A stretch of DNA of 64,000 nt, taken from NCBI GenBank assembly GCA_015146655.1, contig VKHL01000037.1, positions 152,627 through 216,626 of the forward strand. Direction: 5' to 3'. The notes under the pieces are model-generated. The model had not been told where the DNA came from, searched no databases, and saw only the letters and a program-made list of their open reading frames with translations. The first letter of the stretch is position 1. Each line of letters starts with the position of its first letter. Position numbers and translations under genes: made by a program. This document shows, in pieces, positions 1 through 48,696 of the stretch. The DNA comes from Ochromonas danica (taxonomy: Eukaryota; Sar; Chrysophyceae; Chromulinales; Chromulinaceae).

Positions 1-2
1 CG

Positions 3-529
3 CTCTTATCGAATCTCCTTCCAGGCTACAGTTCGAATGCAATGGATCAAGAAATCGAGGTATGGCATGAATCTACTCCTTTTTCTTTTGCTCATCTATA
101 TGCTTCATAAATGGTGCTGTAGGAGGAAGAAGCACCAGCTCTTGGCCTTCCTTCCATTCTTCCCAACGTCAGCCAAGGGCCAGGGCTGTCTAAGTGGTAC
201 CCAAGAGATGATTATTGTATACAAATAATCACAGGAAACTTATTATCTAGAGACTTTCTCAGCAAAGAAAAGCCGCAAGCCATAGTAAATGCTGCCAATT
301 CGGCCTTACTTCATGGGGGTGGGATTGCAGCTGCCATTAGCAGAGCTGCTGGCAGGCAACTTGATGAAGAGTGTCGAAAATGGAAAGAATGCTGGAAGTC
401 GGTCGTGATGCTGCCGTGACCACCGCAGGTTATATTCCTGGAGTCCTCAAAGTAATTCACGTGGTTGGGCCTCAAATCCAAGAGGGTGTGCGACCCAATG
501 AAGCTCAATGAAAGGACCTCTTTAATGCA
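3..529 (+). pseudogene. Broken 5' part of the macrodomain of the following gene
   Basis: Translation in the frame starting at base 3 gives the first half of a macrodomain: ITGNLL, then VNAANSALLHGGGIAAAI and RAAG, the ADP-ribose-binding loops of the family. This frame has stops at 108-110 (TAA) and 120-122 (TAG). Near base 400 the homology shifts to the frame starting at base 2, which continues with TTAGYIPGVLKVIHVVGP, and that frame is cut by TGA at 509-511 before running into the long open frame that follows. Homology continues directly across the shift and across TGA, so introns explain these lesions poorly. They look like mutations or assembly errors. TGA is a normal stop here, since several other genes in the window end with it. 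The true 5' end may lie before base 1. Confidence 0.7.
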
Positions 530-3500
530 GTGACAGCAGCCCTAAATGCTGTTGTCGGTAGAAACCTCTCTTCGGTTGCCTTTCCTGCCATTTCAACGGG
601 TATCTACAACTTTCCTATGGATGAAGCGGTGGCTATTATGGTTGAAGCGGCATCTCGATTTGGCATAGAGAATTCCGCGATCTCCTTGCAGGTGTATTTT
701 GTTCTTCTTGATGAACAGAGTAGTCAGATGTTCAAGAACGCTTTGGGTGCTTTGGATCTTTCTAAGCAAGGCTCATTTGCGCCATCAGTTCGCATTAGAA
801 ACAACAACAAAAAGCTGCTAAAATCAGGCAGGGAAGATACCACTCAACCGCCTAACAATGAGACTAGACTATTGAAGTCTAATGAAATCATCAGGGATTA
901 TAAAGCCGCCGGTGTCGTTTTGTACACTGTAAGATCCGGTGAATTGAATATTCTGCTTGGCCTGGAAGATCGAATCGGTGAGGGATTAGTGCTCAATGTG
1001 CTTGGTGGGAGAGCAGAGCCTCGAGACCAAGACTATCGTCACACCGCAGCTAGAGAATTTCACGAAGAAAGCAAATCCCCGGTCAGTGAGAAGGTCCTGA
1101 AAAGAATGCTGGCATCAGAGCAGGCAACTGCTATTTACTTCGATAAGGGGCAATATGTTCTTTATCTGGTTGATTGCCTGCCAGAGCTTGAGAAATTAGA
1201 TGTCTCGTTCCAACAATCAAGTCGCCATAGCGAGATGGATAAACTCCTTTGGGTCAAGTGGAAAACTCTTTTAGAGGGCTCCAAAAAGCAACCTCCTCAT
1301 ATCACCATGCGTTCCTGGAGGAGAGTGGTAGACTACAACATCTCTGAGTTTCTTCAAAAACTCCTGAATTGTCCTCTAATACTTGATATTGTAGAAAGAA
1401 GGGCATGCCAAACTGCTACATCAAATATGCAATCTGAGTTTGACTCTCTCTTGAGAGAATCATGGGATCCTTTTCCCGAAGACGATAAAGAATGGAGACT
1501 TCGATTGGCTTTTCCTCCGTCAGTTTCCACCTCTTTCCCCATCATACCTCTCGAGCGCAACAGCGCAGAATACCAAGCCGTATCGCAGCGATTTAGTAGC
1601 TCTCCTCCAATTATCACCATTCGCAAAGTGAACTGTGAAGTGAGAGAGGCTGAACACGATAAATTGGTCCAAGAGCTTCAAAAGCAGAATGGAAGTGATA
1701 AAGTTCATAAAATTGAGCCTGTGTTTCATGGGACACCTGAGCGTTGGAGAGCGACTAATATTGCTCTAAAAGGCTTTGATCTTTCCATTGTTAGGAATGG
1801 AAGATCTTCCGGGAATGGTGTATACACGGCAACTGACATCCAAACCCCTCTTGGATATAGTAATAATCAGGGCAGCATTTTGCAGATGAAAGCGATACTC
1901 GCCCCAAACGACCACGGTTATCAAGCTGAAATGAAAGGACCTCCATTCACACCAGGGACTATTCTTGTCTTCCGTCAAGCAGCTCAGGTGCTACCTCGTT
2001 ACGTGATCGACTTTGCGTCACCTGGGCAGGATGATGCTGCTCTTGAGAAGAAAGCTAAAGAACAGCATTTACACGATGCAGCAGTAGCTAGAGAAGAGAT
2101 GGAGAGACAGCAGCGATTGATACAAAGCATGGAGGATCAATATGCCGCGGAACGCATCCGAAATTCGCAGTCTTCAAGTAACTATTTCAAACAACGCATT
2201 GAGACTTACCAAAAGGATTTCCAAGATACTACTGAGAATGACCAGATGGCATGGAACAAGGTTGAGAAGATTATGCGTTTGGTGGATATCGAATGCAGGC
2301 AATTTAGAAATGGCGCGCCTCTTCCTATCTACTATCGCAAACATAGTCTTATCAAGACTATTCGAGAGAATGACGTTATTCTTGTAAGCTCTTCAACTGG
2401 TTCGGGCAAAAGCACTCAACTACCTCAATACATCCTAGATGATATTTTAGAACCTTGCAATGACCACAGGCGTGTGGCGGTATTAGAGCCAAAGCGATTT
2501 AACGCTATTACTCTCTGTCAACGAGTAGCAAAGGAGAGGTCTCAGCAAGTGGGCAACGAAATCGGCTACAGTTTAGGTCAAGGAGATTGTTGTGCCAGTG
2601 CAGTAACGCGAATCGAATACATGACACACGGCTTGTTTATCAATCGGGCACTCAACTCCAAAAAGTTATTGTCTGTTTATGGAGCAGTTATTCTCGATGA
2701 AGCACACGTTCGCTCTGTGGAAGTTGACCTCTGCTTCAAGTTACTTCTCAATGCCTTGAAATATAGCAAACAAGAAGGAGGAAGGTCTTTCAAGATCATC
2801 ATTGCCAGTGCAACTCTTGGTGATAGGGAGATGGGTCTATATCTGAACTATTTCAAGGAAAGTATTCCTCTCTGCAGGGCAACTACTTGTGATGCATCCG
2901 GTCAGCAGTGCTTTCCTGTTCTCACCGTGCATAGAGCAGAAGCAGAGCCTGATTGGGAAGAGGCCAACAGTTTGGAGACAACCAAAGCGTTGGCAGTGCA
3001 TGCTGTAGAGATTGCACTGCAGCTCATTAGAGCTTCCGACGAAGGTAACATTCTTATCTTCATGCCTGGCGAGAGTATTATCAATACTTGCCTAGCAAAT
3101 ATCCAGAATTGGGTTCTATTCAAAACCAAATCACAACCGACTGCAAAGCAAGGAATTCCTTGGAATAATAGCTTGGATTTTGAGTTCAAGCTAACCATAG
3201 ACTCAGACGGTGGCAAAGAAAAGAAAAAAGTTATTGGAGTGTATCCTTTCCACGGAAAAGTGAGTGCGAGGTTAAGACAAAAGATGCTCTTCCACAAGGG
3301 TCAAGATCGAATCATCATTTTCTCCACCAACATAGCGGAGACAGGAATCACATTACCAAACATACGATATGTCATTGACACTGGCTTAGAGCGTAGAGTT
3401 ATTTGGAATCCAACATCTGGTATTCAAGAAATGAAAACGATGAAAGTCACTGCATCTTCCATGAAACAGCGTCTTGGCCGAGCTGGTCGCGTTGCCTCAG

Positions 3501-6019
3501 GTATCTGTGTTCGGTTGTACTCAGAAGATACCGCTAAATCTCTTGATGAGGAAATTCAGCCAGAGATCAAAAATGGAATGATTCTGCGCCTGGTTTTAAC
3601 AATGAAGCAGCTGGCGAAGCAAGGAGATGACGGCAAGCTTTTGACAGAGGTTCCTCCAACATCCTGGGAGTCTGCAGAGAAGATGTTGCAACTGCTTGAA
3701 GCTTTGGATGAAAACAAAGAACTGAATTCCGTTGGTCAAGCTTTGCTCACTTTGGGCCTTGATCTACGGATGGGACGATTTCTAATTGCTTGTAATTCTG
3801 CTGGTTGTCTAGGTAGCGGCATCTTGATTACTGCCATGGTCACCCTGTCCAATAAATTGGACTTCTTGCCGTTGAAAACTGTTGGTAATTATGCTGCAAA
3901 GGAGTTTTTGGATCCTAATGGCGATCACTTTACTCTGATGGCTATTTTTCAGGCCTATCTTGGCGCCAAGAACAAAAATTCGTTCTGTTCAGACTATGAC
4001 CTCGATCCAAATGTTATGGAAGAAGCCAAGCGCTCGAAAGAACATCTAGAAATGATCTGCCTAAAGATGGGATGGAGACAAATGGATCGCAAGAATGCAA
4101 AACCAGAAGACATCCGCAAGGCTTTGCGAGAAAGCCTTTGTGCCGCTTTCTTTGACCAAATAATCAATGCCATAGTGCCCGGATCTCCTGCCAAGAAATT
4201 CATTCGCATTCTCCCAAAGCAAGAATCACAACGCTTTCGTAGTAGCATGAAGAGCTTCTTGGATAGTGCAGGGTTGGGTGACAGAGAAATGCAGGGAAAC
4301 TCTCCTCAGAGCTTTCTCGTCAGCAGCGGTGCATTGAAAGCTAAGTCTACACAAGATGAAGGCAACGCTGATGATGATTACGATGACGACAATTATGATG
4401 GAAGTGACGCTTCATCTCAGGGTAGCATTTATTCCGCGAACACGAATATCACACCAACTTTGTCACCAGCTGTTCCTTCCCAACAAAAGCAACAAACGTT
4501 GACTCTCACCCAACAATCTTCTTTGTGGTTGCTTGCAGAGCAGCAAACAGCAACACCTCTCAGCTTGGCTGTCTTCACCTCGATCATGATAACCGACTCA
4601 GCTCGCGAGCCAGTTATTCATTTAGTTTCTTACATCGATGCAGATGATGTTGTAAACGGAGCGAAACAATGGAGTGAAAAGATAAACTTTGGCAAAATTT
4701 ATCGCAAAATCAAGCCTATCACTAGACGCTACCCAATCTCTTCCCAGCTTGCTAAATATCTTCTTCTTCAGAAAGGCTCAGCGATGCGAAAATACTTTTC
4801 AACGTATGATTTAGTTGATACAAAAGTTGACAAGGACAAGAAGGAACTCATTGTAACAGCACCACAACATATTCTGGAATACTTCAATAACAAGATAAAG
4901 GAATTGGAGGAAGAAACTGATCGAGAAGAGTTTTGCCTGCCGCTTCCTTCGCTTACTAATACTGAAGACAAGACCAAAATAATAAAGCTATTTGGAAGAG
5001 GCAAAGCAAAGAATGAAGAGAAAGAACATCTCGTGAATGACTTGAACAAAATGGTTCTGGATGCATTGGGGGATCAAGGAGATTATCTTCCTCTCCAACT
5101 GAATGATGTTGGAGTTGACAATACGTCTTCCCCTTGGATGATTACGGTCCGAGTCAGTGGATCTGGCAAACAGCTAAGCAGTCTCATGTTGGGTCATATT
5201 CACAGTCTTATTGCGCAAACGCTCCGGCAACAACCCACTCAATCCTTTGACTCCGTGCAAATTAAGAATGCCTCCTCCACAGCCATACTGAGCAAGTCCA
5301 ACAACTTTTTGCCAAATCTAGCATTATTTTCGACATCAGTCCCGCCAGTAGCGCCTTTTAATCACAAGAACAAAGCCATGGTATTTCTAGCTCACGAGGC
5401 TATTTGGAACGCTAATTGCAAAATATATGGCGGCTTCGTGCGCGATTTCATCATTCGCAATGAAGTAGCTAATGATATCGACATTGCATATGATTCCAGA
5501 ACTCAATCACTGTCACAAATTCAGCTTATTATCATTTCAGCTGCCAATAAAATCGGCCTGCGGTGCACAGACAATTGGCGCCAGAAAGGTATGGCGCAAT
5601 CCCGGCGATTCATATTGGGCAACCAATTGGGTGGATCTTCCTTTGAAGTGGATTTGGTCGACCAAAACGTGGTGAGTAGTCAAGGTCTATCTCCAGGAGT
5701 TGACTGTGATGTGGGCAACTTTATTGTGCAGAAGCCTGGTCATCAACAATTTGGTCTGCAGCTCAAGGTGAATCATCCGATGCTCCAGACAGTCCACCAA
5801 AGCATCCGACATTGCCTGGCAAAGGAGTTTGTCTTCTATTATGATCAAAACAATCCGATTGGCCAAGCACGATTGCAGAAATATCTCCAGAGAGGATGGA
5901 AGTGTCTGACAAAGTTGCAGCCAGTTATGCAGACGTGGGCAACAAGCGCAGGCTATGCCAATCTCCTTGCTCCTCAGAAACAATACTCCAAACCTTATTA
6001 CAACCTGGTTAATAGGTAA
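530..6019 (+). CDS. Macro-Nudix-PARP-DEAH helicase-nucleotidyltransferase fusion protein
   Basis: An intronless open frame of 1829 codons. The first ATG is at 617, so the true start is uncertain. Domains in order, by codon: the end of a macrodomain (about 1-75, with FPAISTGIYNFP); a Nudix-like fold (about 120-230, box GGRAEPRDQDYRHTAAREF followed by HEE, one residue longer than usual); a PARP-type catalytic fold (about 400-510, VFHGT and GNGVYTATD); a coiled coil; a DEAH RNA helicase (about 600-1150, STGSGKST, LDEAH, ASATL, STNIAETGIT, QRLGRAGR); an acidic linker; an unassigned alpha/beta region; and a Pol-beta-like nucleotidyltransferase (about 1620-1740, GGFVRD, NDIDIAY, FEVDLVD). The macro, Nudix and PARP families bind, cleave and transfer ADP-ribose; DEAH enzymes remodel RNA. 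A joint role in RNA or protein ADP-ribosylation is inference. The lack of introns, unlike most neighbours, suggests a retrocopy, a mobile or viral source, or a recent arrival. Confidence 0.85.
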   Translation: MTAALNAVVGRNLSSVAFPAISTGIYNFPMDEAVAIMVEAASRFGIENSAISLQVYFVLLDEQSSQMFKNALGALDLSKQGSFAPSVRIRNNNKKLLKSGREDTTQPPNNETRLLKSNEIIRDYKAAGVVLYTVRSGELNILLGLEDRIGEGLVLNVLGGRAEPRDQDYRHTAAREFHEESKSPVSEKVLKRMLASEQATAIYFDKGQYVLYLVDCLPELEKLDVSFQQSSRHSEMDKLLWVKWKTLLEGSKKQPPHITMRSWRRVVDYNISEFLQKLLNCPLILDIVERRACQTATSNMQSEFDSLLRESWDPFPEDDKEWRLRLAFPPSVSTSFPIIPLERNSAEYQAVSQRFSSSPPIITIRKVNCEVREAEHDKLVQELQKQNGSDKVHKIEPVFHGTPERWRATNIALKGFDLSIVRNGRSSGNGVYTATDIQTPLGYSNNQGSILQMKAILAPNDHGYQAEMKGPPFTPGTILVFRQAAQVLPRYVIDFASPGQDDAALEKKAKEQHLHDAAVAREEMERQQRLIQSMEDQYAAERIRNSQSSSNYFKQRIETYQKDFQDTTENDQMAWNKVEKIMRLVDIECRQFRNGAPLPIYYRKHSLIKTIRENDVILVSSSTGSGKSTQLPQYILDDILEPCNDHRRVAVLEPKRFNAITLCQRVAKERSQQVGNEIGYSLGQGDCCASAVTRIEYMTHGLFINRALNSKKLLSVYGAVILDEAHVRSVEVDLCFKLLLNALKYSKQEGGRSFKIIIASATLGDREMGLYLNYFKESIPLCRATTCDASGQQCFPVLTVHRAEAEPDWEEANSLETTKALAVHAVEIALQLIRASDEGNILIFMPGESIINTCLANIQNWVLFKTKSQPTAKQGIPWNNSLDFEFKLTIDSDGGKEKKKVIGVYPFHGKVSARLRQKMLFHKGQDRIIIFSTNIAETGITLPNIRYVIDTGLERRVIWNPTSGIQEMKTMKVTASSMKQRLGRAGRVASGICVRLYSEDTAKSLDEEIQPEIKNGMILRLVLTMKQLAKQGDDGKLLTEVPPTSWESAEKMLQLLEALDENKELNSVGQALLTLGLDLRMGRFLIACNSAGCLGSGILITAMVTLSNKLDFLPLKTVGNYAAKEFLDPNGDHFTLMAIFQAYLGAKNKNSFCSDYDLDPNVMEEAKRSKEHLEMICLKMGWRQMDRKNAKPEDIRKALRESLCAAFFDQIINAIVPGSPAKKFIRILPKQESQRFRSSMKSFLDSAGLGDREMQGNSPQSFLVSSGALKAKSTQDEGNADDDYDDDNYDGSDASSQGSIYSANTNITPTLSPAVPSQQKQQTLTLTQQSSLWLLAEQQTATPLSLAVFTSIMITDSAREPVIHLVSYIDADDVVNGAKQWSEKINFGKIYRKIKPITRRYPISSQLAKYLLLQKGSAMRKYFSTYDLVDTKVDKDKKELIVTAPQHILEYFNNKIKELEEETDREEFCLPLPSLTNTEDKTKIIKLFGRGKAKNEEKEHLVNDLNKMVLDALGDQGDYLPLQLNDVGVDNTSSPWMITVRVSGSGKQLSSLMLGHIHSLIAQTLRQQPTQSFDSVQIKNASSTAILSKSNNFLPNLALFSTSVPPVAPFNHKNKAMVFLAHEAIWNANCKIYGGFVRDFIIRNEVANDIDIAYDSRTQSLSQIQLIIISAANKIGLRCTDNWRQKGMAQSRRFILGNQLGGSSFEVDLVDQNVVSSQGLSPGVDCDVGNFIVQKPGHQQFGLQLKVNHPMLQTVHQSIRHCLAKEFVFYYDQNNPIGQARLQKYLQRGWKCLTKLQPVMQTWATSAGYANLLAPQKQYSKPYYNLVNR

Positions 6020-6341
6020 CCCACTCCAAGTGTAAAAGAATGAATCAAATCAGATGGTCTCGTACTCTCAATGCACACCCTATCATCTTTCTTAACCCAG
6101 ACCAAAGAAAACACCCATCATGACTAAACAAGTGAGCTATGGATAGGGTAGGGGTACCAAGTAAATCAGAAATAATCTGAGGAGAAGAATCGGCAGCACT
6201 GCAACAATCCATTGAGACCATCCAAGAAACGACTTCATCGGAAACAAACAGTTTGTAAAAGTCGGTTATTGCTCTGTTTGGGCATTGAGAGGTGAAGCAG
6301 ATTTCAAGACAGACATACTGACCCCGGGACCCTCACAGAAG
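6020..6341. other. Intergenic region with the next gene's promoter
   Basis: No convincing coding sequence. It holds the 3' flank of the fusion gene and the upstream region of the C2/GRAM gene. An open frame runs into the next gene from about 6285 but has no ATG before 6342. Confidence 0.5.
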
Positions 6342-8385
6342 ATGTTTCTGAAACTTGAAAAGCTTCAAGCCAGGGATCTTGTCGACACTAGCACGGTGAC
6401 CGACTCTCAAGACCCTTGCTTAATCATCAAAGTTGGCAATGAAGAGCATGAGACCTCCAGGTCAGCGACTCTTTCTGCTTTCGCTTCCCTTCCCTCCCTG
6501 ATTGACTGTGGCACTGTGTTGTGCTTGATATTAGGGTAAAGCATGCTGGAGCCAATGCTGACTTCATCGAGTCGTACGAGCTTGAGATTGACGGCAAAGG
6601 TTATGCAGATGGCAGCCTCGAGGTCTCTCTCCCTCGCCTGCGCTCCATCTCTTGTATATGACACTTCCCGACTGTGTGTAGATCTCTGTTGAGGTAGTGA
6701 ATCGTGGCTATGGCGGCAAGCAGCGCGTGCACATTGGCCTCGCTCAGGCCTCGCTCAAAGCCTTGCTGCCTGCACCTTCATCATCCGCCACGACGATCAC
6801 GCTAGACCTCACTCACTATGCTAAGAGTGGCGAGCAAAAGAAGAAGGGCAAAGTGATGATGGTAGCTACCTTGTCTGACGTGCCCTTCGCGACGAAAGAC
6901 TTGGAGCCTGTTGTCATCCAGCAGCTAAATGATGACACGAAGACGGAGCTGCTCACTCAAGCCTTCGGAGATGTGGGCGAGCTAGTTGATGGTTAGCGAA
7001 CCTTCCTTATAGTTGTGCACAGTTCTTGGTGATATGATTGCTGGAACAGATTTCCACTGCGGATATATGGGTTCGTCGCTGATCTGCTATGGCCGCCTCT
7101 ATGTTACCACACGTTACCTTTGCTTCTATTCGCGTCTCTTTGGCAGAGAGAACAAAGTGCGCATTCCCTTCGATCATGTACGAGAGATCACGCGCTCGGC
7201 AGATATCTTCAAGCTCAAGGCTATCCTCAATGTTGACGCTGGGAGGAACTACCGATTCCATTCCTTTTGGGACTTTGAATCAAGTTTCCGCAGCGTTTGC
7301 CACGCCTTGGATATCTTCCGGGATCAGCGCAACCTGCTGATTCCCGTCTCTAACCAGGCCACAGCAAGCGAGATAGTGGACGAATCTCTTCCACTGGCGG
7401 CTCGACGGGGAAGTTCATCTTCCGCGACGGCATCAACAACGACAGACGAAGGGGAGGCAGATGACGCGCTGCAGGCTTTCAAGAAGGAAGCTGAACGTTC
7501 TCGTGGGAAGACTGTGGTGCTGAGCCAGCAGCCTCTTCCAGTCACTCTAGCCACCTTCTCGCGTCTCTTCCTCGAGGACGACGCGCCCTTCAGCTTCAAA
7601 GCCTTTCACGAGTCGATGAAGGATAGCAGTGTGGCGGTCAGTTTGTGGCAAGAGGTGGTGGAGTGTGGCCTGAGACCCGAGACTGCGCGAGAGATAAAGT
7701 TCTTCAAGCCAGTCAATCTCCCGGGACTGGCCTCCACGCGAGGAGTTAAAATGCAAAATTTGAAGCGCTTCGATGAGGCTGGTCTGTTGCTGTGCTCCTG
7801 CACGCATCTTGAGGATGTGCCCGCCGCCGACTGCTTCTCCGTGGATGACACTCTTGAGGTCGCCTCTGCTGTTGGTGGCTCTGGAGTACTCGTCACGATC
7901 TCCTTTCAGGTGACTTTTGTCAAGAGCACGATGATGAAGTCTCTGATCGTGGGGCCCACAAACAGTGAGATGAAGAAGTGGATGACAACCTTCTTCGACT
8001 ACCTCAAGAAGGTGAGAGAGATCTCTTCATGATGGGAAATCAGCCGACTTATTGAACTGTCTACTAGGCTTGTGCAGACTCTAAGACTACAGGTTCATCT
8101 TCGGGTCAGGAGAAAGACTCTACCAAGCAGCCAGTAGCAACAGCAGCTGCTGCGGGAAGTTCCTCAACACTTGCTGTCCCCACTGACACCACCACTTCCA
8201 ATCCACTGACACAGTTGCCAAGTCCCTATTTGCTGACGATACTAGTTTCTTTCGCAATCTGTTTTGTCGCTCTCTTTGCCATCTTGACTGTTCTGCTCTT
8301 CTCTTTGGCGAGGGATTTGCACGAGCTAACCGCATCTGTCAATCGCTGCCAAGAACTTTTGCTGCGCCACAAAGTCGATTTTTGA
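6342..8385 (+). CDS. C2-GRAM-VASt-TM protein, Lam/Aster-type sterol transfer protein
   Basis: Five exons (6342-6460, 6535-6622, 6682-6991, 7023-8011, 8068-8385) give 607 residues in a consistent frame. The N-terminus is a C2-like beta fold beginning MFLKLEKLQARDL, with DSQDPCLIIKVG. A GRAM domain follows (FHCGYMGSSLICYGRLYVT, VRIPFDHVREI), then a VASt/StART-like domain (about residues 340-500). A Ser/Thr-rich linker leads to one transmembrane helix near the C-terminus (LLTILVSFAICFVALFAIL). Lam, Ysp and GRAMD1 proteins with this order sit in the ER at membrane contact sites and move sterols; that role is taken from the family. The intron before exon 4 is only 31 bp (6992-7022). The N-terminal C2 domain is not part of the classic animal or yeast architecture. 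Confidence 0.88.
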
Positions 8386-35109: not shown

Positions 35110-38100
35110 TTGGTAATATGTCTCTCTGAAAAGATGATCAAACCATCAAAGAAAGCAGTAAATAAGAAAAAATTAAAATCTCTTGAATGGACTGATGAAG
35201 CCATCGCACAGTGTAGCGCATTGAATGGCGGGAGCGCGAATGCAGCCTCGACAATGTCTTTGCAGTTTGACGTCGATGGCCAGCAGGCGGAAGACTTCAC
35301 CACCATGGAGTCCAAGATCGCTCGTGTACAAGCCCGTAAGAAAGAAGCAAGGGAGAGGGAAATGAGGTTTAAAAAGCTTAGGCATTCGCAGGACAACATT
35401 TCTTTTGAGTCGCCCGCACTCAGTGGGTCTGATGCCTCCAAAGCACGAACCCTTGCCTCCGCTCTGAACGCTCACTTTGAGCGAGTTTTCGCGAACAAAG
35501 AAATTGACAGTGAGCCGTTGTCTATCAGATTTCCTTTGTATATGTATGACTCGAGTAGTTTCGATGAAGTGTTGTCCTTCGCTTGTGGGCGTGGAGTCTG
35601 CCTTCTCAACCATCTGGAAACCCTTCCTGCTGCCGCTAGTCCGCTTGGGAGATGGTACCCCTGCGATGTTATTGAAGTTTCTGAGTCAGATGTTCTCATG
35701 ATTGCGCAAGGACAAGTGGCGGAGGTCACCATGCGTGTGCCTAAGCTGTTAGTGTGTCTGCTGGCTCATTCCTTCGAGACCTACGTAAAGCGGATTTATG
35801 ACGCTTTAAATCGACGCAATCGGTGTGTCTCGTTGATGAAATATATTATCTTTGTGCGTTCTATGCCTATGAATCGTCGCATTACAAGTACTATGGATGT
35901 GGCGCAAAGACAACGCATATTCCAGAAAGCTTCTTCCTCGACCTCCCTGCGACATCTTCAGAGAAGTGTTGCAGATGAGCAAATTGATGAAGCGCAAAGA
36001 GAGTTTGAATTTGTTATGAATTTGTTGCTCTTCGAATGCAATTTACTAGCCAAGAAAAATGTTGCTTTTGCAGCTTCCTTGCATCTCCCGCAAAGGCTAC
36101 AAACCGAACAAAGTAAATCTGCGAAAGCTCCTCAATGTGGACTTATTGTCTTACCAGCTCATAATATGAAGGCTAAATTGAGTCTGCACCGCAGCTCCTC
36201 GTATATCAACTCCCCTGCTGCTATCGCGGCGCTTCATTGTGTTTTGCGTGAAAATGAGATTATTTTGGCACAGAGAGTTATCAAAGTCTCGTATACCAAG
36301 CCTTTTACTTTGGAGAAATTTGATCGTTATCTCAATGAGCAATTGATTCTAGCCATTCGCACGATCAAACAAGATTGGCCTGTTCGAACTGGACAGGCTG
36401 TTCGAGCTGCCATTCTTCGCAGCCAACAATCTTCTGATCCATCATGTGTGGTCTATGATGTGGGTCTGCGCAATATATTTGAATTTGAGAACACCCAAAA
36501 TGGAATTCGGAGCCTGTTGGAAAGAATGAATTTCATGATGAGCGATGTGTTGAAGGAGGGGCTTTCGAACAGCCTTTTAGCTTTTACAGATTTGGTTGAG
36601 AACTTTTGCAGCTGTGAGGTGCAAGTTCATGACATTCGTCATATCGATGTCATCATTCCGGAAACTTCATTTTATCGAAAGCAGGCGCTGCCGCCACTGT
36701 TCAGCATTGCCTTCCGTATCACAACTGAAGATAAAGTGCTGAACCAAGAAGATATTGATAAGAACAAGAAAGAAATTGCCGCATGGTCAAAAACTAAAGA
36801 GGCAGCCAATGGAGAGAAGTGCCCAATAGCTATAGTACCGGCTGTAGTTGGCAAGACCTTTGAGTACACGCAGAATCCTGATGATTTCAAAGAGGCTATG
36901 CTGAAGGCCTTTCGTCTCATTGTCACTGATTTCCTTGATGTCCCACACATTCAAAAGTATGTTCTGGAGAAAGTTTACTTTCCTGTCACTAAGTTTATCC
37001 CCAGTATTTCGTTAGAGCTAGACTGGGTACGCAATGCGCTGGAAAGAGTTGACAGGGCCGTGACCAATGCCCTCCATCCGCTGCATTCCTACTTGAAATT
37101 TTTCCAAAAGTATGAATCAGTGCTCAATATAGATATTAACTCGTACATTAACAACAAGATTCCCGTTGCTCTAAAAGACTCGGAGAGCACCGAAATTGAG
37201 TTGCCAGTAGCAGTGAATCTGACTCAAGTTCGGGCCCTGATCGATGAGCATCTCGATAGCATCCGCGAGATCGAGGAGAGTTTACCCATTCATCCCATTG
37301 CTTGCGGTCTCTTTTTGGTGGAGGTTGTCAGCGTACGCGTTCTTTTGCTCGAAAAGCATCGTTCTGTAATTCGCGCAGTGCTTTCTCAGCACGCCAGTCG
37401 CTGTTCTATAATTTCAGAATATTTGGATGATGAGTTCAAGAAAATTGCCAAGAAACTGCAAGATCGTCCAGAGAATATCGAAAAATTGGTCGAGCAGGAA
37501 GAATACATTACGGCACTTCCGACTACAATTAACACGTTGCAGGCTTGCAGCCAAGATATGATGGCCAGCTACGACCTTTTAGATATCTATCGCTTCAAAA
37601 TTGATCTGGACAGTGGATCCCAGAGATGGAATGTTTTTGGAGCCCCTGCCAAGGTATACTTGAAATGCACTGAAGTACAAGAGAACAATGTGGCAGTGAA
37701 AAGACGATTCCGAGATGAAATGCTCGGTGAGCAGGCTTCCTTTTTGAAAACCCTCCATGAATTAGATCATGCAGTTGCAGGCCTTGAGAATCTTGTGGAT
37801 TTGTCGGACGTGGTCAACATAGCGGCGAAGGTGAAAGAAGTGGAGATGCGCCTCAACAATGCACAAACTAAAGCGAGGCTCTTCAATTCTCGTGAGACAT
37901 TATTTGAACAAGATATCACTGACTACGAAGAACTGAACCGCATTGCTCGAAACTTTGAACCTTATTCCAATCTTTGGCAGACAGCTAAGGAATGGCTGGA
38001 ACTGGCGGATGGCTGGCGCCGATCATTATTTATCAACCTCAATGCTGAGGAAGTTGAGCGCAGCGTCGATAAGTTCAATGTGGCTATCAACAAAGCAGCT

Positions 38101-41100
38101 CGATATTTTCAAAAAACGGATTTAAAGCATCAAAGCGCTATTGCAAATAAGATCAAGGGACAAGTTGCGGAGTTCGTACCCGAAGTTCCTCTGATTGTTA
38201 CTCTTCGTAATCCAGGCATGCGCGATCGCCACTGGGAGAAGATTGCCCATGAATTGAATGTGGACATATTACCTATTGATAACTTTACTACAGAGCAGAT
38301 AATCTCAATGAATCTTAAAGACTCGCTGGAAACTATCCAGAAGATTGGAGAAAGCGCCGCGAAAGAGTTCCAGATTGAGCAAGCACTTGATAAGATGGAA
38401 CGTGAATGGGAGAATATGAATCTCAACATTTCCCACTATAAGGAAACAGGGACTGGTGTGCTTAAAGGTGTGGATGATATCAATGTTGTGCTCGACGAGC
38501 AGATCACGATGACTCAAGTAAGATGCTACTCTCTTTTTCTTTGTTTATTCTCCTAATTTTGATGTATTTGCGCAGACAATTATGTTTAGTGCTTTCAAGG
38601 GACCATTTGAAGCACGCATAGAGGAGTGGAATCGGAAGCTTTGCTGCGTTTCGGACGTACTAGAGGTGTGGATGACTGTTCAGCGTAGTTGGCTCTATCT
38701 TCAGCCCATTTTCGAATCTGCTGATATCAACCGTCAACTGCCAACAGAAGGGAAAAAGTTCTCCACTGTTGACAAGAGTTGGAGGCAAACCATTTCTGCA
38801 GCCAAACTCAAGCCTAAGGTTATTGATTTTTGTGATAATGCGAAATTATTGGAGCGCTTCCAAGAGAGCGAAATCCTTCTCGATCAGGTGCAGAAAGGTC
38901 TGTCAGACTACCTAGAAACGAAGCGATCTGTCTTTGCTCGTTTCTATTTTCTTTCCAATGATGAATTGTTGTCTATTCTATCTGAGAGCAAAGATGTGAA
39001 ACTTGTTCAGCCTCATCTAAAGAAGTGCTTTGAAGGAATCGATAAGGTCAAGTTCCTTGCCGACCTGACAATTGATCGAATTATTTCGCCTGAAGGAGAA
39101 GAAATCATGTTGACCAACAAGATCAACCCTGTGGAGAAGAATGTTGAGCACTGGATGTTAGAGCTTGAAGGCATGATGCGTCTCTCAATACGAGATGTTA
39201 TGGCGCAAGCTATTGCAGATTATCTCCAGACCCCGCGGCCTAAATGGATGCAAAAGTGGGCTGGAATGTGTGTTCTCAATGGATCCCAAATGCACTGGAC
39301 GAGAGAAATGGAGGAGCTTTTTATTTCGAATGGAGTCAACGGACCTGCCATAATGTTCCAACGGCAAGTGTCTCAATTGGCCGATATGACAGTCCTGGTG
39401 AGAGGCAAATTGAGTTCCGCCGCGAGGACCACTGTTGGCGCACTTACAGTAATTGATGTCCACGCGCGTGATGTGATCAAGAAGCTGGTAGATGAAGAGG
39501 TTGACCGTAAAGATAATTTCAGCTGGACCTCACAGCTCCGATACTATTGGGACCAGGGTGATCTCTTCGCTCAAATGGTCGCTGCAACGCGACCGTATGG
39601 ATATGAATACTTGGGCAATACTTTCCGTTTGGTGATCACTCCTCTCACGGATAAATGTTATTTGACCCTCATGGGAGCTTTGCAGATGATTTTTGGTAAG
39701 TATTGATGACCTCGCCACTTACCCTTTCATACTTTTAAAACTTACCTGCTTTTTCTATTTGATAGGCGGAGCGCCAGCTGGTAGGTTGTTGTACTTTATT
39801 GTTATGTTTATGTTTTCACTGTAGTTGTATGCTTGTCACAGGCCCAGCTGGAACTGGAAAGACGGAAACGACGAAAGGTCCCATCATTTAATTTTTATCT
39901 TTGTTCTACTGTTTTGTTTATACGTTTGTCTTGTGTGTAGATCTTGCAAAAGCACTTGCGATGCAATGTGTCGTATTCAATTGCTCTGATGGCTTGGATT
40001 ATATTGCTATGGGAAAGTTCTTCAAAGGTTTGGCTGCTTGTGGAGCGTGGGCGTGCTTTGATGAGTTCAACCGCATCAACATTGAAGTTCTATCTGTGAT
40101 TGGCCAGCAGATTATGTCTATTCAAATGGCAATTCGAGCTAAAGAGACTCGTATCCAGTTCGAAGGCAGTGATATCTTTGTATCTGATAGGTTTGCAGTG
40201 TTCATTACGATGAACCCTGGTTATGCTGGTAGAAGTGCTTTGCCGGATAGTTTACAGGCTCTATTTCGCCCTGTTGCCATGGTGAGAACACTCTATTATG
40301 TCTTTTGGTGACAATCTTTTTACATTGTATTTTTTTCCATTAGATGGTTCCTGACTATGCTTTGATCGGAGAGATCATGTAAGACTACACCCACACATAA
40401 TGTAGCAATCTTGCTTAATGCTATATGTTGCTTTAGGTTTTTTGCCTATGGTTTTGAGCATGCGAAGGAATGTGGTGCTAAGATGGTAACAACGTTCAAG
40501 CTCTGCTCTGAACAGCTCTCAGCACAGCCACATTATGACTATGGTATGCGTGCTGTTAAGACTGTTATCACTGCAGCTGGCAACTTGAAGCGACAAGAGC
40601 CTGATGCAGATGAAATGGTCTTGCTTTTGAGAGCTTTGCAAGATGTAAATATTCCAAAGTTCTTGGAGATGGATTTACCGTTGTTTGAGGGCATCATCTC
40701 AGATCTCTTTCCCGGAAAGAAGAGGCCAGACCTTGACTATGGAGCCCTCATGCGCTCAATGAAGGAAGAAATTTGCAAGTTCGGCTTGCAACCTGTTAAG
40801 TTTTTCATAACCAAGGTCATCCAACTCTACGAAATGATCGTGGTCCGCCATGGACTGATGTTAGTTGGTCCTACTGGAGGAGGAAAATCATCTAATTTAC
40901 ATGTTCTTGAGCATACTCTGGGCTCTTTGAAAACCCAAGGTATTGCAGGTTTTGCTTATGAACATGTTAAGATCTATCAGCTAAACCCCAAGAGCATTAC
41001 GATGGGACAAATGTACGGAGAGTTTGATCCCAATACCATGGAGTGGCGAGATGGAATTATGTCCACCATGTATCGTGCTGCAACAGTAGATGGACCGGAT

Positions 41101-44100
41101 CGCAAATGGATCATGTTTGATGGACCTGTTGATGCCATCTGGATTGAGGTATGATTCTTCCTTGTTTTTTCTTGTTATGAGTTTTATGGCTTCTTTCTCC
41201 CTTTCTATAGAACATGAATACTGTGCTAGACGACAACAAGAAGCTATGCTTGAACTCAGGAGAGATCATAAAGATGTCTAATGGTATGGATGAAGTTTAT
41301 TCACACAAAACATAGTTTTGACCTTTTGGGTGGATGCTTTATAGAAATGACCATGATGTTCGAGGTAGAAGATCTGGTTGTGGCGTCACCGGCAACTGTA
41401 TCTCGTGTGGGTATCATCTATATGGAGCCGAAAGGCTTGGGCTTGGATGTGCTCTTACAAAGTTGGCTTAATCGCATGCCCACGTGCACACCAGATATCG
41501 TCAAAAGCAAACTTATGTACTATTTCGATCTCTACGTTGCTCCTTGTCTTGTTTTCCTTCGCACGCATGCAAAGGAACTCGTGCCTACCGTGGATAATAA
41601 TTTGACTGAATCGTTACTTCGTATTCTCGATTGTTACATGGAGCCTTACCATCTGGAAGAAGGGCGACCACCGCCCACTGACTTAATGATTGCGGATCTC
41701 ATCACTTGCATTGACCCGCTGTTTATTTTTGCTTTGATTTGGAGTATCGGGGCCACGATCAACGAGGATGGTCGACACTTGCTTGACGCTTTTCTGCGTC
41801 AAGAACTTGCTGCCAATAAGTTTCCTTGGCCTTTCCCCAAGATTGGCAGCATTTATGACTATATTTTTATTGTGGAGACAAAGAAGTGGACGAGGTGGAT
41901 GGAGATCATTGATAAGTTTGAGATAGATCCAAAACTGTCTTTTGCGGAGATTATTGTTCCTACCACCGACTCTGTACGCAATACCTTTTTTCTTGATCTC
42001 CTGCTATCAAACCACAAGCACACTTTGATGGTTGGCGCTACAGGTACCGGCAAAACAATCAACATCAACCAATATCTCATGGGCGCAGCCAAAGTGCAAG
42101 GTCGTATCATCCGCACGAACATTATTCCTATCGCGATGACCTTTTCGGCTAATACGGGGGCAAATATGACTCAAGATCTTCTAGATTCTAAGATGGACAA
42201 GCGCCGCAAAGGTGTTTATGGTCCTGCAGCAGGGAAGCATTTCTACATCTACGTTGATGACCTTAACATGCCAAAGCGTGAGGAATATGGCGCACAACCT
42301 CCTATCGAATTGCTTAGACAGTGGTTTGATCAAGGAGGGTGGTATGATCGCAAAGATTTATCCTTCCGCAAGATCATTGATCTCACCTTTGTAGCTTCCA
42401 TGGGACCTCCAGGAGGTGGCAGACAAGAGGTCACAGCTCGATTCCTTAGACATTTCAATATTATTGGCTATGTTGAGATGTCGGATAGTTCAAAGGCTCT
42501 CATCTTTGGTACTATATTGAAGAGCTTCTTGACTACTCTTGAGGGGAACGTAGTATCCATGACTGATGATATCGTGTCAGCATCTATTGATATATTTTCC
42601 ACCATTGTTCGAGACTTGCTTCCCACGCCCAGTAAATCGCATTACACCTTCAATTTGCGAGATTTGGCCAAAGTGTTTCAAGGAATGCTTATGGTGGATC
42701 CAAAGCGGGTGAATGCCAAAGATCAAATCGCTCGTATCTGGGTACATGAGAATCTTCGCGTCTTTGCAGACCGTCTCACATGTGAAGAAGACCATCAATG
42801 GCTTCGTAAGCAATTGCAAAGCAAAGTCGAGAACGTCTTTGGCATGCCATGGGCATCTGTTGTCCCCCGTGATAGACTTGTGTATTGTGACTTCCTAAGT
42901 GGCGGGGATCTTCGTGTATATGAAGAGGTGGCCAGCATGGATCAACTCAAGACTGTGATTGAAGAGTATTTGTTAAATCATAACGCGGAGTCCAAGCAGC
43001 CCATGCCCTTGGTCATGTTTTCTGATGCTTTGGAGCATGTAGCTCGCATTTCGAGAGTGTTGCGTCAGCCCCAGGGAAATGCCCTTCTGTTGGGTGTCGG
43101 AGGCAGTGGCAGGCAGAGCATGACTAAGTTGGCCACATACATTATGGGCTATCAGTTGGCGACTGTCGAAATCGTTAAGGGCTATTCCATGAACGACTGG
43201 AGAGAGGATATAAAACGAATCCTTATGCAAGCTGGTGTGAAAGATAAACCCACAACCTTCCTTTTCTCTGACGTGCAGGTAATCTTCTGTTTTTCGATTT
43301 CTCGTCTTGTGATTGTTTTCTCACTTTTTATTTTCACAGATTATAAACGAGCGTATGGTTGAAGACATTAATAACATTTTGAACTCTGGAGATGTGGCTA
43401 ATTTATATGCTCCTGAAGATCTTGAAGCTATCGCCTCTGTTTGCAGGGTGGAGTGCCAAAAGAAGAAAATTCCGCCAACCAAATTGAATATATTTGCACA
43501 GTATTTACTGCGAGTGCGGAAGAATATTCATCTTTGTGTGGCTATGTCTCCATTGGGCGAAGCGTTTCGAAATAGATTAAGAAACTTTCCTTCTTTGGTG
43601 AATTGCTGTACTATTGACTGGTTTACTAATTGGCCTGCTGAAGCCTTGCAATCTGTCGGCCTGTCTATTCTTCGGTCCAACGATTATGGTCTTGGTGACT
43701 ATGAGCTGTCCACGGTGGAGATGTTCAAGAACATTCATATGTCTGTTGAGAAAGCTTCGATTTCTTTCTATGACACTCTGCGAAGAAAGAATTATGTCAC
43801 CCCAACTTCATATCTTGAGCTGTTAAGTAGTTTTGGCAAGTTGATTGGATTGAAGCGCATAGAGATCAGCACTAAGAAGGATAGATTGCAAATTGGCTTG
43901 GACAAACTATCGGAAACGAAGAAAATGGTAGGTGTAATGCAGGAAGAGTTGGTGATTCTACAGCCACAACTTGTGGCTACTCAAGCTGAAGTTTCAGCGA
44001 TGATGGTTGAGATTGCCAAGGACCGTGCATCGGCGGCAGATACGAAGGCACAGGTGGAGGTAGAGGAGGCAAAAGCTAACTCGAAAGCTGCAGATGCAAA

Positions 44101-47100
44101 GGCCATAGCCGACGATGCGCAGCGTGATCTGGCAGAAGCCATTCCAGCCCTTGAAGAGGCTGTGAAATGCTTGAAGATGTTAAACAAGCCTGATATCGAT
44201 GAAGTTAAGTCATTGAAGACACCTCCCGGTGGAGTCGTTCTCACCATCAAAGTGTGTTGCATTATGTTCGACATCAAGCCTATAAAGAAGAATGATCCCA
44301 ATCAAGCTGGCAAGAAGATTGATGATTACTGGGAAGCCGGGCAAAAGTCGTTATTAGCAGATGCAAAAGCTTTTCTTTCAAACCTTGAGACATTCGACAA
44401 AGACAATATCCCCGACCGTATTATTAAAGCAATATCTCCATTTATGGATGACCCAAGCTTCACTCCTGCGGCTATTGAGCGCTCTTCCAAGGCGTGCACT
44501 GCGATTTGCATGTGGGCTCGTGCCATGCACAAGTATCACTTCGTTGCTTTGGGAGTTGCACCTAAGCGAGCTAAATTAAAGGAGGCCGAGGCTGAGCTGG
44601 CCGTTGTGATGGCTCAACTAGCCTCTGCGAAAGCGACGCTAAAAGAGGTCAATGACCGATTAGAGCAACTCGAGAAAGATTATAATAGTGCGGTGGAGAA
44701 AAAGAATCAACTTGAGGCTAAAGAGGCCTCTTGTAAGGTCCAACTAAGCAATGCCGACAAGCTGATTGGTGGCTTGGGTGGTGAAGAGGCTCGTTGGAAG
44801 GAAACAGTGACAGTTCTGAATGAAGCTTATCGAAACATTCTTGGAGATGTCGTCGTCTCTGCTGCTACCATTTCTTATCTAGGCCCTTTCACGGCCGACT
44901 TTCGCAACAGCTTGGTCAGTTCTTGGCAACAAGCTTTAGTGGACTATGGCTTGCCACATACTGCTAATTGTAACCTTGAAGTGACGCTCTCTAATCCTGT
45001 CAAGCTTCGCTCTTGGCAGATGTGTAACTTACCTGGTGATTCTCTCTCTACCCAGAATGCACTCATCATGGATCATGGTCGCAGGTAAGGATCTTTGTTG
45101 TGCTTTTTCTTATATCTATATATTATATGATATATCTAATGTTTGCGTTATCAACTCTTTGCAATAGATGGCCTCTCTTGATCGATCCTCAAGGCCAGGC
45201 CAATAGATACATTCGATCGATGGCTAAAGATAGCAATTTTTGTGCGAATGGTATGGACGTGGTAAAGTTATCGGACAAGAATATGCTCAGAACCCTCGAA
45301 AATGGGGTCCAGTTTGGTCGTTGGGTATTGCTAGAGAACATTCAAGAGACTTTGGATGCTGCACTAGAGCCTATCCTGCAACAGCAAACCTTCAAACAAG
45401 GAGGACAAGACATGATGAAGTTGGGCGATAACATTATTCCTTATAACAATCTGTTTCGCTTCTTTCTCACCACCAAGTTGTCAAATCCTCACTATGCTCC
45501 CGAAGTGCAGGTCAAAGTGTCTTTGTTGAACTTCACTATCACTCAGGGCGGATTGGAGGAACAATTGCTGGGTGTTGTGGTGACCGAAGAGTTGCCTGAA
45601 CTCGCCCACCAAAAGGCAGACCTTGTGATACAGAATGCTGCCATGAATAAGCAGCTGTATGATATTGAAAGCGAGATTTTATACCTGCTCTCCAATTCAA
45701 AGGGAAACATCTTGGATGATACTGTCTTGATCGAAACACTAGCTCAGAGCAAGAGAACCTCGGAGGAGATCAAAGAGAAAATGAGAGAGGCTACCAACAT
45801 TGAAGCTGAGATTTTGAAGCAAAGTGAACTATATCGACCAGTGGCTAAGAGGGCATCTCTATTATATTTTGTCATAGCCGATCTTGGAGAAGTTGATCCG
45901 ATGTACCAATACTCGTTGCAGTGGTTTACACAACTCTTCGTTCGAGGAATTGCCACGGCAAAACCTGCTTCAGATCTTGAGCAGCGTATCACCAACCTAA
46001 ACGACTATTTCACCCTCTCGGTATACAACAACATCTGTAGATCTCTCTTCGAGAAGCACAAACTCCTCTTCTCTTTTATTCTGTGTGTCAAGATTATGCA
46101 AGGCGACGACCTGATCGATGGTGTTCTCTATCGATTTCTTCTCTCTGGCATTTCTCCTGAAGTTGTACAAGCAAAGATGCCTGAGTCTAACTGGTTGGAA
46201 TCTAATGTTTGGAGTGATCTTTGCTCGCTTGCTGGTATCAAGCAGTTCCGCAGTTTGCCTGAATCGTTTGCCAAGAACTTGAGTGCTTGGCAAGAAGTTT
46301 TTGAAAGTTCGGATCCTCAGGAAATGTCTTTGCCCAAACCATTCAGCACGATTTCACTGCTTGAAAAGCTTTGTGTTTTGAGGTGTTTACGAAGGGACAA
46401 AATGGAATTAGCGCTGCAAAACTTCATTGTGCACTATCTTGGGGAGACTTTCATCCAGCCTCCACTTTTCGATCTGAAATCTTGTTATTTGGACAGCGTT
46501 AACATTACTCCGTTAATTTTCATCCTTTCGTCTGGTAGGTGGAGTTCCTCAGTAGAATTTTCATTTGGGAGTTTGTGATTCGATTTTATCCATTACTTAG
46601 GCTCTGATCCGAATAAAGATCTCGACATCCTGGCCCAAGAGTTAAACATGACGGACAAGCTCCGGCGCATTGCCCTTGGACAAGGACAAGGCAAGAAAGC
46701 AGCAACAATGATTGAGAAAGGTGCCGCTGCGGGAGAATGGTGAGATGAACCCCGTAGCTGTTAATCTTTTGGTTCTCATTCTTGTTTGTATAGGGTGATG
46801 CTTCAAAATTGCCATTTGTCCATCTCTTGGATGCCTGTGTTGGAACAAATTTGTGAGACCATGGAAGCTGATAAAATCCATCCGGACTTTCGTCTGTGGC
46901 TAACATCCATGCCCTCGGAGTCTTTCCCTGCTTCTGTCCTGCAAAACGGCGTGAAGATTACGAAAGAACCACCCAAAGGACTGAGAGCAAACCTGAAAAA
47001 TACATTCCTTAAACTGGACAATGACAAATTGCACAAAACAAACAAGGTTGTGGAGTATCAGAAGCTTCTCTTTGGTCTAGCTTTCTATCATGCCATAGTT

Positions 47101-48696
47101 ATCGAAAGAAAGAAGTATGGTCCTTTAGGATGGAACATTCCCTATGAGTTCAATGACACTGATATGGATATCACAGCTGCCCAACTCGAACTCTACGTCA
47201 ATCAATACGAGGAGATTCCTTACAAGGTACTACAGCAATTAGCCTCTGTGGTCAACTATGGAGGTCGTATTACAGATGATAAGGACATGAGGACCTCAGA
47301 TATCCTTATTGCTGACTTCTTCACGCCCAGAATATTGGAGGCCAGCTACTTTTTCTCAAAATCGGGCGTCTACTATAGCATCACTCCAGATCGAGATTCT
47401 CCATATAGTTCTTACATGGAGTATATAGATTCTCTCCCTCTCAATGCAGAGCCAGAAGTTTTTGGGATGCATAGCAACGCTTCGATTACTTGTGCTATCA
47501 CGGAAGCTGACGCAACCTTTGGAATTATTCTCTCTCTCCAACCTCGCACTAATAGTGCTGGTGGAATATCTAGAGAGCAGCAAATTATCGACAGCGCGTT
47601 CAGCATGGCTCAGCAACTACCTGTACTCTATGATATCGATGGTATTGGCCTCCTTTATCCCACTGACTATCATGAGAGTATGAATACAGTGCTGGTTCAA
47701 GAATCGCAACGTTATAACAAACTGTTGGGGGTGAGTGAGTATAGTTTTATCTCGTTCACGTCAATGATTTCAATTCCTGTTTTTTCTCTTTGCTTCATAG
47801 GTCATGCATCAATCCTTGAGAGAATTGCAACGTGCTTTGAAAGGTCTCGTGGTCCTCTCTTCTGAGCTGGAGCATATGGGCAACGCGATTTATGATCAAC
47901 GCGTCCCAACACTTTGGTACTAATTTCTTTCATGATTCCCTTTTATGAAATGCATTGAATCTGACTATTGGATGATTTTCTATGCAGGTCGAATTCCGCC
48001 TATCCTTCGTTGAAGCCTCTGTCGCCATGGTTCAACGATCTGCTTCAGCGTTTGCATTTCCTCACAAATTGGATCGACAATGGCATTCCTGCAGCATTCT
48101 GGATATCGGGATTCTTTTTCCCTCAAGGTTTCTTAACTGCCATCCTTCAGAATTATGCGCGCAAATATTCTTTCCCCATCGACACGGTTGCATTCTCTTT
48201 CGTCATGATGGATAAGACAGTGGCAGACATCCGCGCCAAGGCATCAGATGGATGTTACATTCACGGCTTATTCTTAGAAGGTGCTCGATGGGATTCGAGA
48301 GTGAACAGTTTGATAGACCCAAAGCCAAAAGAGTTATTCTCAGCGATGCCTGTTATTCATATGCTTCCTGAAAAGGACCGACCAACTCCCACCTCTGGGA
48401 TCTATCGATGCCCTGTTTACAAGATCCTCACGCGAACAGGCACTCTATCTACAACAGGTAGGCGATCCCGTGTTAATCCTATTGCTTTTTTGTGTTGTTG
48501 TGCAAGCGCTAATTCAACATGGAAATGATTGCTAGGTCATTCTACCAATTTCGTGACTTGGATTGAGATTCCCAGCAATAAGCCTACGATCTTCCGCTCT
48601 TCGCTTGTTTCGGAGACCAACGCCCAAGTGCGGTTTTGTGACCAAGACTACTGGATCAAGGCCGGTGTGGCTTGCTTCTGTGCCTTGCGGTATTGA
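35110..48696 (+). CDS. Axonemal inner-arm dynein heavy chain (DNAH3/7/12-like)
   Basis: Sixteen exons total 4202 residues. Exon ends: 38517, 39695, 39780, 39877, 40281, 40378, 41148, 41283, 43278, 45084, 46534, 46739, 47730, 47916, 48457, 48696; matching starts: 35110, 38576, 39766, 39842, 39941, 40344, 40437, 41211, 41345, 43340, 45168, 46601, 46794, 47801, 47988, 48536. AAA1 has [21 protein letters not shown]2 [12 protein letters not shown]3 [11 protein letters not shown] and AAA4 [10 protein letters not shown]. The stalk is a coiled coil (43.9-44.8 kb) and the C-terminus ends [16 protein letters not shown]. Length and C-terminal signatures fit single-headed inner-arm dyneins, so the organism builds a motile cilium. 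Exons 3, 4 and 6 are only 15, 36 and 35 bp. Confidence 0.95.

Follow-up and report, generated by a model that had tools for sequence, protein, structure and literature searches.

An open reading frame joining ADP-ribose-related modules, a DEAH-box helicase and a nucleotidyltransferase fold in Ochromonas danica

We analysed a stretch of 64,000 nucleotides from the chrysophyte flagellate Ochromonas danica (assembly GCA_015146655.1, contig VKHL01000037.1, hereafter C37, positions 152,627 to 216,626), referred to as the window; coordinates are those of the window unless stated otherwise. Near its start, on the forward strand (which carries all features described here for this gene), lies an open reading frame (ORF) of 1,829 codons at 530–6019, with GTG as its first codon and TAA as its stop. 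It is part of an uninterrupted stop-to-stop frame of 1,835 codons (512–6019) that opens after a TGA. The predicted domain order in this ORF, as read from sequence matches and structural models, is the second half of a macro domain, a Nudix domain, a PARP-type ADP-ribosyltransferase (ART), a DEAH-box RNA helicase, a possible KH-like segment and a nucleotidyltransferase of Pol-beta fold, with a single frame running from the Nudix domain to the nucleotidyltransferase. An earlier note had proposed five modules in this order in a 1,829-codon product, on one frame open from position 3. The ORF is indeed present, and the module list and its order are supported by Pfam Macro, NUDIX, DEAD and Helicase_C and by PARP12 structures, but of the macro domain the ORF includes no more than the second half. 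The single frame from position 3 did not hold: the frame of the ORF, followed from position 2, meets eight stops, the last at 509–511, and the first half of the macro domain is in another frame.

An interrupted macro domain and the ADP-ribose modules

The macro domain is distributed over three stretches. Its N-terminal half occupies an open stretch at 123–416, where Pfam Macro scores 40.2 bits (match 285–389) and the Protein Data Bank (PDB) gives matches to MACROD1 (E = 9.7e-9) and PARP14 (2e-7). The middle part continues in a second frame at 368–511 (Pfam Macro, 17.5 bits over 368–508) and ends at an in-frame TGA (509–511), the frame change being located in the overlap of these two stretches, 368–416. 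The C-terminal half, 512–760, forms the start of the long open frame and is matched by Pfam Macro and by macro domains in the PDB, with E values down to 6.4e-11. A whole-genome family search for Macro returned two matches (38.9 and 60.3 bits, jointly covering profile positions 1–118, with one TGA inside the second); both are pieces of this locus, and no second macro domain was found in the genome. Since both halves match solved macro domains, the domain is, judged by sequence, real by descent, and what breaks it in the assembly is a change of frame together with a nonsense codon. We regard its assignment, and that of the helicase described below, as certain.

Both lesions fall within 389 bases, and the next 5,505 bases are free of stops; by our arithmetic, the chance that two evenly placed lesions in approximately 5.9 kb would both fall there is about (389/5894) squared, or 0.004. 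Possible causes are errors in sequencing, decay of this region or a transcript form that has gone unrecognised. An altered genetic code was considered as an explanation of the TGA and rejected, as 6 of the 14 ORFs listed end in TGA; for some of these ORFs the end may come from reading into an intron and not from a true stop, and TGA looks like an ordinary stop in this genome. Small introns were rejected too, because the four introns placed in neighbouring genes span 58–83 bases and the interrupted stretch itself scores as macro. Nor was a selenocysteine insertion sequence (SECIS) found that might explain the TGA, Rfam giving no match over window positions 1–7000 at E values up to 1. The loop of the macro domain reads GGGIAAAI. 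In the PARP14 alignment, AAA likewise occupies the same place following the GG loop, and this sequence points to a reader of ADP-ribose at least as much as to an eraser.

Downstream, at 815–1300, Pfam NUDIX (cut-off 21.1 bits) scores 24.6 bits on the isolated segment and 19.7, below the cut-off, on the whole ORF. PHROG MutT/NUDIX matches the same stretch independently (E = 6.5e-4). The metal-site motif RExxEE is found at ORF residues 175–180; this motif alone arises in 430 of 20,000 shuffles of the protein.

The PARP-type ART lies at 1490–2150, assigned from PDB PARP12, Pfam PARP and the positions of its motifs. Human PARP12 accounts for three of the five PDB rows listed (E = 1.5e-4 to 6.6e-4), the other two being unrelated at E > 1. 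The residues of the putative triad are H400, Y432 and, tentatively, I478 of the ORF, with HGT at 400 and GNGVY containing Y432, both aligned with PARP12. In PARP enzymes the His and Tyr belong to the nicotinamide adenine dinucleotide (NAD) site, and a third residue other than Glu, as in H-Y-I, is typical of the mono-ADP-ribosylating type. On sequence similarity, the segment would be an H-Y-x mono-ART, Clade 3-like, the clade label being a similarity rank. As to a relation to Tpt1/KptA, PTS_2-RNA was not matched when Pfam was run on the ORF (E up to 1) or on the PARP segment (E up to 5). A genome search with the PARP segment revealed no clear paralogue, the next match having E = 2.4. A genome scan with PF00644 and PF02877 also gave no match, and its control was silent too, which makes that scan uninformative and leaves other PARPs possible.

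The helicase and the C-terminal region

The helicase core (RecA1, RecA2 and the start of HA2) spans 2270–4000 and is matched by Pfam DEAD and Helicase_C and by 71 PDB sequences, the best 60 of the 71 at E values from 3.6e-63 to 3.8e-40. That the helicase and nucleotidyltransferase motifs are all present, as the earlier note had stated, was confirmed: motifs I, Ia, II (DEAH), III, V and VI were all found, as was the GG-x-V-R-D...D-I-D signature discussed below, and none of 20,000 shuffles of the protein contained these helicase and nucleotidyltransferase patterns. The protein shares all core motifs with DEAH/DHX helicases such as Prp43/DHX15, DHX35 and HrpA. It differs from them in lying far under the equivalog cut-offs for HrpA (240.9 bits against 722.75) and HrpB (234.5 against 546.15), in a barely recognisable HA2/OB region and in carrying enzyme domains on both sides; a neighbouring DHX8-like helicase ORF scores 80.1 bits for the OB fold. 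The best-scoring other helicase of the genome has 34% identity, confined to residues 598–1029.

A KH-like RNA-binding segment is possible at 4712–4921 (ORF residues about 1395–1464), judging from model topology and weak Foldseek matches. The single-sequence AlphaFold2 model of residues 1325–1829 in which it was seen is poor, with a mean predicted local distance difference test score (pLDDT) of 41.6; within it this stretch has the order beta-alpha-alpha-beta-beta-alpha, with blocks of ten residues at pLDDT 49–85. Foldseek places a bacterial secretin N-domain first (E = 9.6e-3), followed by the KH domains of PCBP2 (0.012) and FMRP (0.016). No GxxG occurs in residues 1395–1464.

The last 229 residues (5330–6016) are assigned to a Pol-beta-fold nucleotidyltransferase by motif, hhalign, AlphaFold2 and Foldseek. 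GGFVRD-9-DID is present at ORF residues 1634–1651, and the third carboxylate, whose role we infer, likely lies in FEVDLVD at 1705. A motif scan of viral contigs gave 21 stretches, of which 11 were grouped by eye into one family; nine full-length members were aligned, two truncated ones were omitted (one was later used as its full copy, L064), and the other ten (CCA-like, unrelated or too short) were dropped. These viral relatives were chosen by the motif, so the motif is not independent evidence in the hhalign, model and Foldseek results that follow. In a single hhalign comparison, the nine relatives matched the window domain with a probability score of 94.6 and E = 6.6e-8, and the aligned residues included positions distant from the seed motif, among them KxF and GW. 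A profile combining the window domain with the viral relatives found tRNA nucleotidyltransferases or poly(A) polymerases in the PDB in five of six listed rows, weakly (E = 0.14–1.4); the viral profile without the window sequence found none, its only row being another protein. When the alignment including the window sequence was used for searching, one of 132 pattern matches was confirmed, over 36 residues round the motif.

The AlphaFold2 model of the nucleotidyltransferase, built from 11 sequences, reached a pLDDT of 61.7. Foldseek returned 881 PDB matches at E ≤ 10; among the best 50 of these, 49 are Pol mu, beta or lambda, a ‘tRNA processing enzyme’, OAS3 or Cid1, and one is an alarmone synthetase. 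Against BFVD the best match was a Hokovirus protein (E = 7.3e-6), and 12 matches had E ≤ 0.001: nine from giant viruses, two from phages and one unnamed, with three of the 12 named as nucleotidyltransferase or poly(A) polymerase. Sequence and model together support the nucleotidyltransferase assignment, subject to the motif-based choice of the relatives.

The domain has GG-x-V-R-D...D-I-D in common with the head domains of poly(A) polymerases and CCA-adding enzymes, to which it also shows weak profile matches, and tRNA-processing enzymes are among its Foldseek matches. It differs from these head domains in the nine residues between RD and DxD and in its sub-cut-off Pfam score. The closest relatives retrieved are short viral proteins from IMG/VR and, by fold, giant-virus proteins. 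The short viral family (L033, L035, L036, L039, L041, L046, L047, L050, L052 and L064) comprises proteins of ~160–185 residues, as cut, with GGFVRD-9-DID, KxF and GW; Pfam PolyA_pol sees it weakly, in three of the four members scanned. The giant-virus proteins A0A1V0SH99, A0A7D3UUZ1, Q5UNU4 and others, many of them uncharacterised, have the same predicted nucleotidyltransferase fold. Gene exchange between giant viruses and this lineage is a possibility that these models suggest.

Stricter or wider-spaced versions of the nucleotidyltransferase pattern gave no matches, and a scan of prokaryote genomes with the nucleotidyltransferase alignment gave 24 stretches, none of them confirmed. In tblastn searches of phages, the nucleotidyltransferase retrieved 14 records at E = 0.05 or worse (nine of the ten listed are annotated as tape-measure protein) and the PARP segment nine records at E = 0.1 or worse; both sets were taken as chance. 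Searching the genome with the C-terminal third revealed no clear paralogue; the single other match had E = 0.03 over 63 residues.

Gene model and genomic setting

The probable start of the gene is an ATG at C37:152176 (L001:6177), 451 bases upstream of window position 1. A 170-codon first exon from this ATG, placed from its open frame and a GT-AG junction, would have its 3' end at window positions 1–59, and it carries no assigned domain (a single Pfam match, 13.2 bits and E = 0.087, is at noise level). It is followed by a probable intron of 63 bases at 60–122, recognised by sequence and bounded by GT-AG; the four introns placed in neighbouring genes measure 58, 61, 82 and 83 bases. The third-position GC content of the ORF is even, at 0.40–0.48 across eight blocks and 0.43 overall, and that of 17 neighbouring ORFs is 0.49 when pooled (range 0.43–0.64). 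This is most likely a native cellular gene of a flagellate eukaryote.

The window lies within contig C37 of a 31.2-Mb genome in 337 contigs. The neighbours that could be assigned are a GRAM-VASt protein, a leucine-rich-repeat protein, an ELMO protein, an amino-acid permease, a DEAH helicase with an OB fold, a sorting nexin, a Brr2-type helicase, an axonemal-type dynein, a cupin and an ABC transporter. For two more of the scanned ORFs, of which one lies upstream of the window, no family passed the cut that was applied. Among the neighbouring ORFs scanned, which cover part of the window's ORFs, there was no sign of a defence island or a viral insert. Elsewhere in the genome, a separate Tpt1/KptA RNA 2'-phosphotransferase gene (170 bits) lies at C169:32393-33133 (L066) and is the sole genome match for that family, and other PolyA_pol head domains above the cut-off are present on C6 and C2.

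Several features of the surroundings were noted in their own right. The downstream gene on the same strand (7013–8032) encodes GRAM and VASt lipid-transfer domains. An axonemal-type dynein heavy chain extends over several open stretches at 35110–47865, one 693-residue piece having a best match at E = 2.1e-201, which suggests a flagellated life stage. Upstream of the window on C37, a 557-codon ORF (L001:4058-5731) was scanned with Pfam over 4100–5728 and matched no family at E values up to 5; it may resemble a SET-type methyltransferase. Adjoining a DEAH helicase gene, L004:3063-3662 is a long simple repeat coding for poly-histidine and poly-valine, and a run of ten Ns within it (L004:3261-3270) is an assembly gap.

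Candidate functions in RNA metabolism

The reading that we favour, held at just short of even confidence and drawn from sequence, is that the gene encodes a mono-ADP-ribosylating RNA helicase whose targets are the ends of RNA or proteins bound to RNA, with an ADP-ribose unit at its N-terminal end and a nucleotidyltransferase at its C-terminal end. We infer the activity of each domain, the RNA target and the cooperation between domains. In such a protein the helicase, perhaps aided by the KH-like segment, would engage and remodel RNA or RNA–protein complexes, and the H-Y-I type PARP would mono-ADP-ribosylate RNA ends or the proteins bound to that RNA. Reading (or removing) the ADP-ribose mark would fall to the macro domain, the Nudix domain might cleave ADP-ribose or NAD-type ends, and the nucleotidyltransferase could add nucleotides to RNA 3' ends.

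There is precedent for parts of this scheme. According to the accessible text of PMC8053099, PARP10 and TRPT1 attach ADP-ribose to RNA, and MacroD-type hydrolases remove it from RNA ends, in vitro; the abstract of that paper calls the cellular relevance of RNA ADP-ribosylation unclear. As far as the accessible part of PMC8066025 describes it, PARP13 needs the helicases p72 and DHX30. PARP13 (ZAP) with DHX30 or p72 thus shares with the window protein a PARP fold partnered with an RNA helicase (PMC8066025, same part), but these are separate proteins in animals and one chain in the window, where Pfam scans gave no zinc-finger family.

A number of results weigh against this reading, beginning with the ADP-ribose unit. 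The reading frame of the macro domain is not intact, given the frame change in 368–416 and the TGA at 509–511; if these lesions are not errors of assembly, the product as sequenced would be without a complete macro domain. The macro loop has Ala at the position aligned with an Asp of MACROD1, and the Asp following the GGG loop is catalytic in MacroD-type hydrolases. The strict Nudix box Gx5Ex7REUxEExGU had no match, with RExxEE kept at 175, and the Nudix segment has no PDB sequence match at E ≤ 10. Pfam PARP scores 19.6 bits (E = 7e-4) on its segment, below the curated cut-off of 26.7, and I478 aligns with the PARP12 Ile only in a second alignment stretch of 0.7 bits. In the helicase, HA2_N scores 13.5 bits (cut-off 21), and Pfam detects no OB_NTP_bind in ORF residues 1151–1600. 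The nucleotidyltransferase scores 16.9 bits with PolyA_pol (cut-off 23), and its PDB matches in Foldseek have E values of 3.6e-3 to 1.8e-2 in the best 50 of 881, none at or below 0.001, with query TM-scores of 0.25–0.32. Finally, no close relatives of the nucleotidyltransferase, helicase or PARP segments were confirmed in viral contigs, and so none that shares the architecture.

In the domain search that the earlier note had called for, NUDIX was over its Pfam cut-off on the isolated segment, and PARP and PolyA_pol were below theirs. The reversible ADP-ribosylation that the note had proposed is plausible in view of the in vitro work on PARP10, TRPT1 and MacroD-type enzymes (PMC8053099, accessible text), but its removal half has lost ground, given a macro domain that is broken in this assembly and carries Ala in place of the MACROD1 Asp.

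Among the alternatives, we consider unlikely an antiviral effector whose helicase would recognise foreign RNA and whose PARP and nucleotidyltransferase would mark that RNA or its proteins, a fused counterpart of PARP13–DHX30 or of PARP14. The cooperation of PARP13 with helicases (PMC8066025, accessible part) and the resemblance of the nucleotidyltransferase fold to giant-virus proteins would fit such a role, as would the pairing of macro and PARP, which recalls PARP14-like (Clade 3) proteins. The window protein and PARP14-like proteins both have macro N-terminal to the PARP catalytic domain, and the macro N-terminal half aligns with PARP14, with AAA following the GG loop in both; the H-Y-I triad of the window protein is as in PARP12. 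It departs from the PARP14-like arrangement in having a Nudix domain between macro and PARP, and a helicase and a nucleotidyltransferase after it, so that its PARP is not C-terminal. The surroundings, however, speak against defence: the assignable neighbours are housekeeping-type genes, and PADLOC matches the helicase part only, weakly (SngC, 30.8 bits; GajB, 13.1). Immune families are often expanded, whereas the PARP and C-terminal parts have no clear paralogues in the genome. The defence role raised in the earlier note thus drew no support from the neighbouring ORFs scanned.

Quite unlikely, in our view, is a decaying or regulatory protein in which the macro lesions are real, the N-terminus is being lost and an otherwise ordinary DEAH helicase carries Nudix or PARP domains that bind but are inactive. 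This would account for a frame change and a TGA, apparently a normal stop, within about 390 bases, for the degenerate Nudix box and for a PARP score under the gathering threshold. It accords poorly with the 5,505 stop-free bases that follow and with the retention of RExxEE, H-Y and the nucleotidyltransferase motifs.

An RNA-repair protein seems to us distinctly improbable. In that case the helicase would open damaged RNA, the nucleotidyltransferase would restore 3' ends in the manner of CCA addition, and the ART, macro and Nudix domains would handle 2'-phosphate and ADP-ribose products. Tpt1, Poa1-type macro proteins and Nudix enzymes act in tRNA splicing on such products; Tpt1/KptA with macro and Nudix partners resembles the window protein in joining ART, macro and Nudix chemistry on RNA-derived ADP-ribose, as predicted for the latter. 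In the window protein, macro and Nudix adjoin an ART, and the Pol-beta-type fold has weak matches to tRNA nucleotidyltransferases and tRNA-processing enzymes. But this ART is of a different family from Tpt1/KptA, resembling PARP12 with H-Y-I and giving no PTS_2-RNA match, and the genome has its own strong Tpt1/KptA gene on C169 and separate PolyA_pol head domains on C6 and C2. Because the ART is PARP-type and a Tpt1/KptA gene exists elsewhere, a pure Tpt1-like repair role is less likely, and the repair role suggested by the earlier note is weakened in its simple tRNA form. A KptA–Nudix fusion occurs in Bodo saltans mimivirus, according to the accessible text of PMC9503650.

An assembly chimera of two or more mis-joined genes is very remote: the macro region is disturbed, but the frame is kept across the module junctions over 1,835 codons, base composition is even, and the contig in which the gene is embedded measures 216,626 bases.

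For the favoured mono-ADP-ribosylating helicase, each part belongs to a known family, and the domain order appears undescribed as far as searched. Within a partial coverage of the literature, no published protein combining PARP, macro, Nudix, helicase and nucleotidyltransferase was found in the titles and abstract openings retrieved, which agrees with the earlier note, whose author knew of no described protein with this order. Neither helicase nor Nudix occurs as a word in the accessible main text of two PARP surveys, Citarelli 2010 (PMC2964712) and Perina 2014 (PMC4245714). The latter, in that text, covers >1900 PARPs from 249 species and mentions >100 PARP types in which many additional domains occur, so that an unlisted fusion is possible.

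A bolder version of this reading, which we think unlikely, is that one polypeptide handles ADP-ribose on RNA, its PARP writing the mark, its macro domain reading or erasing it and its Nudix domain trimming it, with a DEAH helicase and a nucleotidyltransferase for 3' ends physically tied to these modules. Both RNA ends would then be modified by one machine, which would belong to an undescribed ADP-ribose-based pathway of RNA processing or surveillance in protists. RNA ADP-ribosylation is known mainly from in vitro work. A natural fusion of a mono-ART, two domains that handle ADP-ribose, an RNA helicase and a nucleotidyltransferase would be strong genetic evidence for the use of ADP-ribose chemistry on RNA or RNA–protein complexes and would provide one protein in which to test RNA ADP-ribosylation. 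Since the genome searches turned up neither another macro domain nor a clear PARP-segment paralogue, dissecting the system may be unusually simple.

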